43,181 bases of DNA. Origin: an uncultured Bacilli bacterium (lineage in GTDB: Bacteria > Bacillota_I > Bacilli_A > RF39 > UBA660). The position numbers and the translations under genes are program-made. Below the pieces are notes generated by a model that worked only from the letters and a program-made list of their open reading frames with translations, was not told the origin of the DNA and did not search any database. This document shows positions 16,287 to 43,181 of this stretch, one piece after another. Where the stretch lies: positions 1 through 43,181 of the forward strand of contig CALVVT010000004.1 of the NCBI GenBank assembly GCA_944363935.1, read 5' to 3'. Positions within the stretch are counted from its first letter, which is position 1; each line of letters starts with the position of its first letter.

Positions 16287-16363
16287 ATATAAAAAACTCC
16301 ATTCTTCCTACATAAACCTTTCACGTTCTAAACGTGAAGCTTCGGATTGAACAGAGTTCTTTC
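16287..16363 (-). ncRNA. Candidate stand-alone structured small RNA (~75 nt), unknown family
   Basis: Read on the minus strand, a strong promoter is followed by a closing stem AACTCTGTTC / GAATGGAGTT (16358-16349 with 16304-16295; 10 pairs, two of them G-T), an inner perfect hairpin TTCACGTT-N3-AACGTGAA (16319-16337) and a T6 tract right after the closing stem. That is a complete promoter-structure-terminator unit with no convincing ORF; a 14-codon frame starts about where transcription should start. It does not show the SRP RNA GGAAG/AGCAG signature, nor riboswitch or 6S features known to me. It lies between the YgjV-like gene and the toxin-antitoxin operon. Confidence 0.6.
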
Positions 16364-16369
16364 ATAACA

Positions 16370-16398
16370 ATAATATCATTTTCATAAATTATTGTCAA
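16370..16398 (-). promoter_or_regulatory. Strong promoter of the candidate small RNA
   Basis: Minus strand: -35 TTGACA (16398-16393), 17-bp spacer, -10 TATTAT (16375-16370). The predicted start is about 16363, 5-6 nt ahead of the closing stem. Confidence 0.8.
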
Positions 16399-16484
16399 TT
16401 ACTAGTATATTTCAATACTGGTTTTTTTATACAAAAATCACATGTAAAACTAAATATAATCGAATAAAATAATAAAATTTATAT

Positions 16485-16967
16485 TTACCTATTTTTTTTA
16501 TCAAGTTTTATCATTGCTATAATATTACTAATAAGTAAAATTATTTGGATTATTATTCCGCTATAAGAAACTACATAAATATTATAAATAAGCCAAGTCA
16601 TACTAGTTAAAATCATTCCGTATCTTAAATAAGTAGGATTATTATAATTAATAATAATAGTATAAATAATAGTTGCAATAACTGGTAAAAGACTAAAAAT
16701 AGTATTATAAGTAAAAAGGCCAATTAAAAGAAAAATAATTATAAATAAAATGGTAAAATATTTATTACTTTTTATTTTATAAAATATTAAATTTCTTATA
16801 CCAGAAACCATACTAGTTAAAAACCCCGACAAACCACCTAATAATAAATAATGTAAACTTTTAAAAAAGAAAGCCAATGTTTGCATCAATAATATTTTTT
16901 TAGTTGTTTTCTTAAACATACTTAAAAGTAAGAAAAAGGCATAAATAAATCCTAATATCTGTCCCAT
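16485..16967 (-). CDS. YgjV-like inner-membrane protein
   Basis: 160-aa, very hydrophobic protein with about five to six membrane helices. It opens MGQILGFIYAFFLLLSMF and contains KSLHYLLLGGLSGFLTSMVSGIRNLIFYK, the pattern of the YgjV family (function unknown; possible small-molecule transporter). ATG 16967 follows AGGTGAT; an in-frame GTG three codons earlier is the alternative. No clear terminator follows before the small-RNA promoter. Confidence 0.78.
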   Translation of the reverse strand: MGQILGFIYAFFLLLSMFKKTTKKILLMQTLAFFFKSLHYLLLGGLSGFLTSMVSGIRNLIFYKIKSNKYFTILFIIIFLLIGLFTYNTIFSLLPVIATIIYTIIINYNNPTYLRYGMILTSMTWLIYNIYVVSYSGIIIQIILLISNIIAMIKLDKKNR

Positions 16968-17012
16968 AAATATCACCTATTATATTAGATTAGTTTACCC
17001 AAAAATAGTGAT

Positions 17013-17879: not shown

Positions 17880-18251
17880 ACAATTATTCTCTTCTTGATA
17901 TTCAAAAGTATACTTATTTTGAGTTACTTTTCCATCCTTTTCTTCATAAATGTATTTTATACAAACTCCGCCTTCTATCTTATCACCTGTTTTGGGGTCT
18001 TTTAACTCACTACTATCTAAATAACCGCCATCACTTAAATCTCCTAAACTAACATATGTAGTATCAGTAATTCCATTCGCCGATTGATAATTTTTAGCCG
18101 CATCGATAATCGTATCTTTCTGGGTATCTGATAATGAGGCTTTAGAAGAATTTAAAATACTCATTCCACTAGTAACTGCGATAACAGCAACTACCGCTAG
18201 TAAAACTAAAACAGCAAGTAATTCAATTAAGGTAAATCCGCTTTTTGACAT
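17871..18251 (-). CDS. Type IV pilin-like (pseudopilin) protein
   Basis: 126-aa prepilin. Leader MSKSG is cut before FTLIELLAVLVLLAVVAVIAV (class III signal; Glu5 of the mature protein present), giving the N-terminal helix that anchors and assembles pilins. The C-terminal domain has two Cys (GVCIKYIYEE, ENNCKD) that could form the D-loop disulphide. Its first 25 bp overlap the upstream pilin gene, so the sequence encoding KSGFTLI is read in two frames. Confidence 0.88.
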   Translation of the reverse strand: MSKSGFTLIELLAVLVLLAVVAVIAVTSGMSILNSSKASLSDTQKDTIIDAAKNYQSANGITDTTYVSLGDLSDGGYLDSSELKDPKTGDKIEGGVCIKYIYEEKDGKVTQNKYTFEYQEENNCKD

Positions 18252-18673: not shown

Positions 18674-18883
18674 CTACTTTTTTTCTTTATATTCAGCATC
18701 CATAATAACAGTATTTATTCTTATATTTTTATTAACCGGTTTCTCTTTCTTAATTTTTCGATAAACTTTATAAATTAAGTAAACTAAAAAGAGAAAAAGA
18801 AAAACAAAAATAAAGATATGAAAGAATAAAACAAGTAAAATAATACTTATAATAACAAATAAAATTCGCTTAATATATTCCAT
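18674..18883 (-). CDS. Small membrane protein
   Basis: 69-aa protein, one or two membrane helices in the first ~42 residues, then a basic cytoplasmic tail (YRKIKKEKPVNKNIRINTV). No family recognised. It lies 7 nt after ftsQ in the murG-ftsQ unit, so may be linked to envelope growth. Confidence 0.65.
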   Translation of the reverse strand: MEYIKRILFVIISIILLVLFFHIFIFVFLFLFLVYLIYKVYRKIKKEKPVNKNIRINTVIMDAEYKEKK

Positions 18884-42197: not shown

Positions 42198-42822
42198 TTA
42201 TATTGAAAGGGTATAACTATTATCAGAGCTTCCATCGCCACCAGTAATTTTAACTTCTGGGGATAATGTTACTACAGGGCGGACGCCGGACGAAGTGTGA
42301 ACGTAGAAGCCGTGGTGGTTGCCAATGTAGCCGCTACTGGTTACATCCCACACAATGTACGAGCCGCTTTCAGAATACGGCGACATGGTCCACCAGTAAT
42401 CACTATTGAACTTCCAATTATTATTTTTACATGGTGCACTAGTTTGATATCCTTGATATACGCTGGTACAACTACTATTTGTACTTGCTCTTAAATATTC
42501 GGTAGCATCAATTAACCCTACTTTACCTTTCCATTTAACTGCATTTACTTGGTTTATATCTGTACTTATTGTTTGCCCTGACTGATTCTTTAATACTCCG
42601 ACATTATACAATGCATCTTCTTTTACCATTTCTTTAGCTGCCTGATTTAATCCATCATAATATGTTGTATTCAAATATGTATTTAATTCTGCCTCGGTGG
42701 TTGGTAACGCATATTTCGTTCCGTTTACCTCCGCGGCTAACTCTGTTATTGGACTTAAATTTGTATTATACAATGTACTACTGCTTCCCCAGATATTGCA
42801 ACCATACGTTGAACTGCTCATA
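42198..42822 (-). pseudogene. C-terminal fragment of a second variable surface protein, cut by an IS
   Basis: About 208 codons homologous to the C-terminal domain of the 118-2174 gene: CNIWGSSSTLYN, NGTKYALPTTEAELNTYLNTTYYDGL, KWKGKVGLIDATEYLRAS, WWTMSP, GVRPVVTLSPEVKITGGDGS. An extra Cys pair (SSCTSVY, APCKNN) distinguishes it. The open frame runs to an ATG at 42845, but its first residues (MCLKNCPL) come from the IS end that begins about 42823, so signal peptide and upstream domains are missing from the window. Its end holds a second GC-rich variable region. Expression would need a promoter in or beyond the IS. Confidence 0.8.
42277..42386 (-). other. Candidate diversity-generating variable region 2 (VR2)
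   Basis: 110-bp patch, 56% G+C (62 of 110 by hand count), coding from MSP to GVRP. It shares scaffold codons with VR1 but is three codons longer, so the two may stem from different templates or an indel. Variable codons are almost all NNC/NNT (TAT, AGC, GGC, ATT, GAT, ACC, CAC, TTC); GAA and GTA are exceptions. No template in the window. Confidence 0.55.
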
Positions 42823-42890
42823 AGTGGACAGTTTTTTAAACACATTAAAATAGGGGTATCTTACTTGATACTCCCTATCTCTTCTCTATC

Positions 42891-42919
42891 TTGATAAAAC
42901 GACCTTTTTCTGTTATTAT
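42891..42919 (+). promoter_or_regulatory. Transposase promoter inside the IS
   Basis: -35 TTGATA (42891-42896), 17-bp spacer, -10 TATTAT (42914-42919). The -35 and spacer lie in the left arm of the inverted repeat, so transcripts starting here (about 42926) lack that arm. Confidence 0.65.
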
Positions 42920-42984
42920 TTCTTTAGACTAACAATTTTTCAATAACAACAAAAATTCTCTTTATAAAAAGGTGGTCGTTTTAT
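42894..42984 (+). repeat. Long inverted repeat that can sequester the transposase start
   Basis: ATAAAACGACC (42894-42904) pairs with GGTCGTTTTAT (42974-42984), extended by TTTTT / AAAAA across a 3-nt bulge. The right arm covers the Shine-Dalgarno (AAGGTGG) and the first bases of the transposase ATG. Confidence 0.75.
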
Positions 42985-43181
42985 GTCTAAAGTATACAAT
43001 AATCAAGATAAAATTGCAAGTGATATTGCTTCTTTTCTTAAAAAAGTTTTCCCTAATATTAGAAAATCTCAACTTAATATTATTCCTTTTATTTTTATTG
43101 GTATTATTTTAGCCGAATCTTCTGTTGCTTCGGATATCGCCAAACATCTTAAAGGTGATTTCTCTCTTGTTAAACTTGATT
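42983..43181 (+). CDS. Transposase, IS4-like, N-terminal fragment
   Basis: The first 66 codons are in the window: MSKVYNNQDKIASDIASFLK, then KVFPNIRKSQLNIIPFIFIG and IILAESSVASDIAKHLKGDF, continuing past the edge. The DNA-binding start with AESSVASDIAKHLKGDFSLVKLD resembles IS4-type DDE transposases common in gut Firmicutes and RF39 genomes (recalled, not searched). The catalytic residues lie outside. AAAAAGGTGG is the SD. Confidence 0.75.
   Translation, partial: MSKVYNNQDKIASDIASFLKKVFPNIRKSQLNIIPFIFIGIILAESSVASDIAKHLKGDFSLVKLD

Follow-up and report, generated by a model that had tools for sequence, protein, structure and literature searches.

The DNA analysed here (the window, 43,181 nucleotides from an uncultured Bacilli bacterium) ends within an insertion sequence (IS), and the start of its transposase gene is covered by an inverted repeat. 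The question raised by this locus is what the repeat is for. According to the initial annotation, it hides the translation start site in RNAs entering from outside and leaves it free in native transcripts. The element was delimited as follows.

42817 to 43181, + strand: left part (365 bp) of an IS copy, whose transposase gene is interrupted by the end of the contig
42817 to 42831, + strand: left terminal repeat, CTCATAAGTGGACAG, placed from the sequence and the ends of relatives
42983 to 43180, + strand: first 66 codons of the transposase ORF (ATG 42983-42985), cut by the contig end

A same-genome sequence search gave six matches to this IS. Both arms of the repeat are present in the copies on contigs C4, C29, C73 and C18 (the last at 83% identity); the C74 copy is cut by the contig end and C19 holds a fragment whose match stops soon past the left arm. 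The C18 copy encodes a whole transposase of 388 amino acids (P0001). This protein matched the NCBIfam IS4-family model NF033591 over residues 50-369 (E 8.8e-24, 84.2 bits for a cut-off of 152). All eight transposases of an alignment, A1, matched the same model, with a best E value of 2.9e-27, and four of them matched Pfam DDE_Tnp_1 at E <= 0.01. D112, D180 and E286 are invariant in these eight sequences and are putative catalytic residues, a role that we assume. Y278, R281, E286 and K293 are also invariant (8/8), with the spacing Y-(2)-R-(4)-E-(6)-K. A section of PMC2266710 defines IS4-family elements by terminal inverted repeats, target duplications of about 7-13 bp and a single-frame DDE transposase that is related to IS4 profiles and carries the signature Y-(2)-R-(3)-E-(6)-K. 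Because the spacing is one residue off this signature, we term the element IS4-like and do not file it as an IS4 member. Judged by its sequence, the transposase is remotely IS4-like.

The ends of the elements read CTTATAACCGGACAG or similar, that is, they are 5′-CT ends, and most elements measure 1.48-1.57 kb (L061, 1.36 kb; the left end of L015 is misplaced). Exact target duplications of 8-10 bp were found at 7 of the 21 loci tried and one with a single mismatch at a further locus; none was found at 11 (in L015 and L041 the left end is misplaced or cut), and at the remaining two the right end was not found. Where found, the duplications agree with the 7-13 bp of the IS4 family, and the elements have terminal inverted repeats as that family does. 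The initial annotation had called the element unrelated to IS10 and IS50. This is not supported, since 8/8 transposases match NF033591 and the 5′-CT ends and 8-10 bp duplications resemble those given for the IS10, IS50 and ISPepr1 subgroups in the same section of PMC2266710.

Relatives were collected at three depths. Using P0001, matches were obtained in 9 of the 44 genomes of the genus and, using alignment A1, in 36 of the 386 genomes of the family, the window's own genome included in both. The class-wide search matched 12 of 395 genomes; only five of these lie outside the family, with weak matches of 44-129 profile positions at E values of 1.8e-5 or worse. A related-locus search in a genome-contig collection found no relative. 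Forty-one hits at or near the start of the gene were read. L065, in which the terminal repeat runs straight into the ORF, was set aside, leaving 40, and L029 and L068 were removed as duplicates, leaving the 38 elements of the permutation test. Later counts are made without L064, a decayed element with unpaired arms, and refer to 37 elements, four from the window's genome (L001, L002, L003, L013) and 33 from related genomes. Starts were re-cut for L044, L060 and L061; one start-containing hit, G331:C54, lies outside the set.

The arms of the repeat in the window copy are these.

42894 to 42909, + strand: left arm, ATAAAACGACCTTTTT, the last three bases of the predicted -35 box plus part of the promoter spacer
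42966 to 42984, + strand: right arm, AAAAAGGTGGTCGTTTTAT, from the Shine-Dalgarno region (AAAAAGGTGG, 42966-42975) as far as the A and T of the ATG

The repeat was confirmed at the place first reported, where it covers the Shine-Dalgarno region as well as the first two bases of the ATG codon, and its arms form 11 bp plus 5 bp around a 3-nt bulge. Conservation of the arms among IS copies, which had been proposed as a check, was also observed: all six own-genome copies have the same outer 11 nt in the left arm, and the four that reach the right arm have the same outer 11 nt there too.

Could such a repeat arise by chance, from an AT-rich promoter that happens to be complementary to a Shine-Dalgarno stretch? 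On the sense strand, 42891-43000 folds with -15.5 kcal/mol at a z-score of -1.9, and 13 of 200 shuffled sequences folded as well, so that the single-sequence sense fold of the window copy would not convince. Moreover, 8 of 37 foreign right arms, some of them from same-arm copies, pair with the window's left arm as well as its own right arm does, or better. Against chance, the 11 out of 11 outer-arm pairs of the window copy were reached by none of 1000 shuffles. Among the other ORFs of the window, of which 31 out of 38 listed were scored, no start region reached a pairing score of 10, as compared to 29 of the 37 IS elements. Across 38 elements, one decayed element included, the mean arm duplex amounts to -16.7 kcal/mol with the own arm and to -10.6 kcal/mol with foreign arms, and the own-arm pairing sum was reached by 0 of 20,000 permutations, in a statistic that ignores kinship. 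Own pairing is therefore far above that with foreign arms, in shuffled sequences and at the starts of other genes. Together with the shuffle tests, the permutations led us to reject chance, whose probability we regard as negligible.

The pairing was counted by script, with the best match taken as the left arm; raw pair counts are thereby inflated, and shuffles and foreign arms were scored in the same way. A MAFFT DNA alignment of 24 start regions placed some left arms (such as that of L014) out of register, and for this reason no column count was made on it. The ungapped shuffle test picked a wrong left arm for L035, L061 and L062, and the later pair count was limited to the promoter. Clade groups in the codon and pair analysis were assigned by hand.

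Comparison of the relatives showed that the arms remain complementary while their sequence turns over between lineages. The outer arm is ATAAAACGACC in the window, ATAAACAACCA in L014, GTAACTCAC in L015, ATGAAACAGCC in L018, ATACGGC in L035, ATACGAC in L067, ATATGACACA in L039 and GAACAACAA in L050. Each type occurs with its complement adjoining the ATG codon, in some cases with G-U pairs in the inner part. Several arm columns carry three or four Watson-Crick types, and the arm type switches both between and within supported clades of the transposase tree (28 rows, with some placements uncertain). Pairing is weak in L023 and L066, is matched by 97 of 1000 shuffles in L036 (ungapped test) and is lost in the decayed L064. 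This turnover bears on whether the arms are a DNA site, an operator or cruciform bound by the transposase or by a host protein. The arms do overlap the promoter. A fixed protein site would however be conserved, and elements with largely common terminal repeats and promoter boxes differ in arm sequence. The DNA-operator reading was rejected on account of this turnover and is very improbable.

We then considered the sense promoter.

42891 to 42919, + strand: predicted transposase promoter, -35 TTGATA (42891-42896), -10 TATTAT (42914-42919), 17-nt spacer

A TG precedes the -10 box at 42911-42912. With this promoter, the predicted transcription start (about 42926) falls 3′ of the left arm. The -35 box had been described as lying inside the arm; this is correct for only half of it (42894-42896), and the arm fills mainly the spacer. 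A -10 box could be placed in all 37 elements, with a TG before it in 33. Left-arm pairing spans from 20 bases before the -10 box to 8 past its first base and never extends further 5′ (37 elements), from which it follows that the arm uses mainly the spacer, a part of the promoter that sigma70 reads loosely. The overlap of -35 box and arm marks no clear departure from IS10, in which, according to an excerpt of PMC5006887, changes in the promoter pIN destabilise the antisense RNA, RNA-OUT.

That the element's own promoter starts RNA 3′ of the left arm is in keeping with the predicted starts: the left arm ends 5′ of them in 37/37 elements, an order that arises by construction where the predicted start lies closer to the ATG than the 28-30 nt up to which the arm was sought. 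The layout expected for read-in sequestration, with the left arm 5′ of the predicted start and the right arm over the Shine-Dalgarno region and ATG, was thus found in all 37. The mean energy needed to open positions -15 to +5 was 14.6 kcal/mol in read-in RNA as compared to 4.7 kcal/mol in native RNA, and 7.3 or 8.0 kcal/mol when the 5′ part was shuffled or replaced by a foreign one. Read-in RNA required more energy than native RNA in every element and, in 28 of the 37, more than all 30 shuffles; in the other nine it was equalled by at least one of the 30. The mean unpaired probability of the start region was 0.19 in read-in RNA, 0.50 in native RNA and 0.36 with the 5′ part shuffled. By this measure the contrast is weaker than by opening energy, only 18 of the 37 elements beating all 20 shuffles. 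The window copy itself is a weak case on the sense strand: its opening energies are 11.5 (read-in) and 5.3 kcal/mol (native), with 2 of 30 shuffles as high, and its unpaired probabilities 0.31 and 0.38, with 3 of 20 shuffles as closed. Overall, the comparison, made with predicted starts, supports a start site that would be free in native RNA and hidden in read-in RNA.

These data would fit a hairpin that silences read-in RNA and does nothing else. Inspection of the other strand pointed to a possible further function, and the corresponding features are listed below.

42991 to 43019, - strand: predicted antisense promoter in codons 3-13, -35 TTGCAA (43019-43014), 17-nt spacer, -10 TATACT (42996-42991)
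42843 to 42984, - strand: predicted antisense RNA that would start at about 42984, form the stem-loop H1 and end after T1; its extent is our inference
42850 to 42878, no strand assigned: T1, a terminator-like stem-loop between the IS end and the promoter, followed on the - strand by TTTTAATGTG

The predicted sigma70-like antisense promoter in codons 3-13, absent from the initial annotation, is close to TTGNAA-17-TATANT. At least 9 of the 12 positions match in 36 of the 37 elements, with a mean of 9.43 matches as compared to 7.85 in base-shuffled controls. Its place and 17-nt spacing are common to 28 of the 37, and three others share the -10 box with an 18-nt spacer. In L044 the site is shifted along with the shorter N-terminus, and a displacement of 5 nt is seen for the best site of L014, L031, L032, L043 and L047.

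The choice of synonymous codons points in the same direction. With expectations taken from codon use in 21 of these ORFs, codon 12 (Ala, Ser, Thr or Val) is always GCA, TCA, ACA or GTA (37/37; 6.0 expected), and elsewhere in these genes only 10-18% of the codons for these residues end in A. Codon 4 (Val or Ile) ends in A in 22 of 24 cases, with 3.8 expected, and serine at codon 13 is AGT or AGC in 19/19 (14% elsewhere). An A-ending codon is found at position 7 in one of 24 cases and at position 11 in none of 32, which shows that the choice reflects no general preference near the start. As in an IS10-type control region, a putative promoter lies opposite to the transposase gene, across the part where its translation starts. 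Window positions 42800-43181 gave no match at E <= 10 to the RNA-OUT family of Rfam.

On the same stretch of the window copy, the antisense fold reaches -23.1 kcal/mol (z -5.3) and the sense fold -14.7 kcal/mol (z -2.3). An RNA from the predicted antisense start of the window copy folds on the same arms with -23.1 kcal/mol (z -4.3), and with -40.5 kcal/mol (z -7.3) when T1 is included. The antisense fold has a z-score below -2 in 35 of the 37 elements, and, again in 35 of the 37, the part of the antisense RNA that is complementary to the 5′ end of the native mRNA is more open than the RNA as a whole. In the window copy T1 is followed, on the antisense strand, by TTTTAATG, and none of 200 shuffles was as stable as this hairpin. 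Over 35 of the 37 elements, T1 averages -12.5 kcal/mol, as compared to -5.1 for shuffled sequences, and the stem stays while its sequence changes. It reaches p <= 0.05 in 29 of the 35, failing to do so in L014, L023, L031, L032, L038 and L048. T1 often has no good U tract; a home-made terminator score was better on the antisense strand in 24 of the 35 elements. T1 could terminate the antisense RNA or block read-in RNA, or do both.

Given the predicted antisense promoter, the repeat might just as well serve as the stem of an antisense RNA; that it is conserved does not prove protection from read-in alone. Could it then have been selected as the antisense stem-loop only, the fold-back of read-in RNA being a by-product? 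The codon constraint and the window copy, whose antisense fold exceeds the sense fold, favour this idea. However, in most elements the right arm crosses the Shine-Dalgarno region and reaches into the ATG, and the sense strand folds as strongly on average (mean z -4.26 for sense, -4.40 for antisense); we consider this alternative unlikely. Since the two folds are equally good, they are silent on which RNA is selected. Two observations hint at the sense strand: in the 11-pair register, G-U pairs outnumber A-C pairs by 16 to 4, an excess that the fixed G's of the Shine-Dalgarno region may cause, and the arm duplex is stronger as sense in 28 elements and as antisense in four. This hint, the position of the left arm 5′ of the predicted start and the opening energies would suit a read-in hairpin with an unused antisense promoter. 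Such a view gives no account of codons 4, 12 and 13 spelling a promoter on the other strand; we demoted it once that promoter was found, and we consider it rather unlikely.

With equal folds and a weakened sense hint, we propose both uses, as in IS10. At a probability of roughly 0.7, and as far as sequence can tell, an IS4-like transposase is controlled here by a region of the IS10 type, with the repeat as its core and read both ways. The covarying arms, the left arm's place in the promoter, the codon constraint of the antisense promoter and the second hairpin are seen in the sequences, and from them we infer the following course. RNA from outside would carry both arms, fold, and shut the Shine-Dalgarno region and the ATG. 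The native mRNA would start 3′ of the left arm and hence be more open. On the other strand, transcription from the promoter in the first codons would begin at the start codon and yield an antisense RNA; this RNA would fold on the same arms, expose a loop complementary to the native mRNA 5′ end and perhaps end at T1. As copy number rises, it would block translation in trans.

Related elements with differing arms co-reside in three genomes (L014 and L023 in G040, L037 and L063 in G265, L031 and L060 in G266). It is conceivable, though doubtful, that arms and loops turn over because a trans-acting antisense RNA selects co-resident elements against mutual silencing, in the manner of the copy-control RNAs of plasmids. 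If so, the IS lineage would carry RNA-OUT-like regulators that diversify on one fixed scaffold and are mutually orthogonal. Against this idea, the two divergent types of the window's own genome share identical 11-nt outer arms and differ in their loops.

Several side observations were made on the relatives and their surroundings. In-frame stops occur in the transposase relatives L017, L036, L037, L042, L044, L061 and L062; in the six whose start region was read (all but L017), the arms are still paired and an antisense promoter site is kept. Among 25 right ends examined, 19 lie at most 14 codons from the 3′ end of a convergent DUF6273-like gene, recognised by eye from its C-terminus RP..L... 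(L013, L014, L015, L017-L020, L025, L026, L031, L032, L034, L036, L037, L039, L041, L049, L051 and L060). The stop codon of this gene is inside the IS terminal repeat in 15 of the 19, and the gene end is 9-14 codons away in four. No such gene was seen at the right ends of L023, L033, L035, L040, L052 and L061. Ten of the facing proteins were scanned against Pfam DUF6273: four pass the cut-off, two match below it and four are unmatched. The placement looks like a target-site preference. The window's own 1.27-Mb genome has 33 DUF6273 matches; two of these, at 181-594 and 42261-42695 (- strand), lie one near each end of the window, and the gene at 42261-42695 seems truncated on its 5′ side by the left end of the IS.

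Elsewhere in this genome, C79:16321-19198 (L116, L094) is likely a diversity-generating retroelement. It has a reverse transcriptase at 16321-17001 (- strand) and two 108-nt repeats, at 18042-18149 and at 18684-18791, that are 81.5% identical; 15 of the 20 mismatches fall at a T of the copy on the reverse transcriptase side (adenines on the - strand), and the second copy is at the 3′ end of a DUF6273 gene. The window also holds an Rfam DUF3800-VIII RNA at 16293-16360 (- strand, 55.9 bits).

Start-site sequestration, antisense control and terminator-plus-sequester pairs are already known (IS10 and IS50; IS200, from a portion of PMC3196728). Among the titles listed in searches of open-licence papers, we found none on this IS lineage or on a comparative test of the layout. 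IS10-style control, known from few well-studied elements, appears to be used also by an IS lineage in bacteria with genomes of about 1 to 1.8 Mb. Two evolutionary signals, compensatory changes in the arms and the choice of silent codons, support the layout on comparative grounds. Whether such control is inherited within IS4-like elements or has arisen more than once thereby becomes testable.

Among known systems, ISPpu9 has, according to excerpts of PMC8450116, a 5′-UTR structure that likely hides the ribosome site, and an antisense RNA beside tnp. Unlike here, that structure belongs to the native leader, the start codon being at position +245, and its antisense RNA seems to promote translation rather than block it (same excerpts). 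IS200 of Salmonella, as described in part of PMC3196728, has two stem-loops as here, one stopping impinging transcripts and one hiding the ribosome binding site; in contrast to the present element, IS200 transposases are given there as lacking the DDE motif, and IS200 as lacking terminal repeats.

As regards IS50/Tn5, a difference is that a phmmer search with P0001, up to E 10, gave no relative in the PDB. We know of no antisense promoter at the corresponding place of IS50. Read-in RNA of IS50 is reported to have its start site sequestered (Krebs and Reznikoff 1986; Schulz and Reznikoff 1991), which resembles what is predicted here. By eye, the ends of the present elements share part of the IS50 end consensus printed in the consulted section of PMC2266710.

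Finally, the present element differs from IS10/Tn10 in having no RNA-OUT match, a separate T1 hairpin and a transposase that is only remotely related. Read-in RNA of IS10 reportedly folds back (Davis, Simons and Kleckner 1985). An excerpt of PMC5006887 describes RNA-OUT as an antisense RNA of 69 nt that uses its first 35 nt to pair with the start region of the transposase mRNA. The likeness to IS10/Tn10 extends to a transposase that is remotely IS4-like, 5′-CT ends and target duplications of about 9 bp (passages of PMC2266710). In IS10, an opposite promoter also makes an antisense RNA that overlaps the transposase promoter and the translation start (excerpt of PMC5006887), an arrangement that is predicted here.
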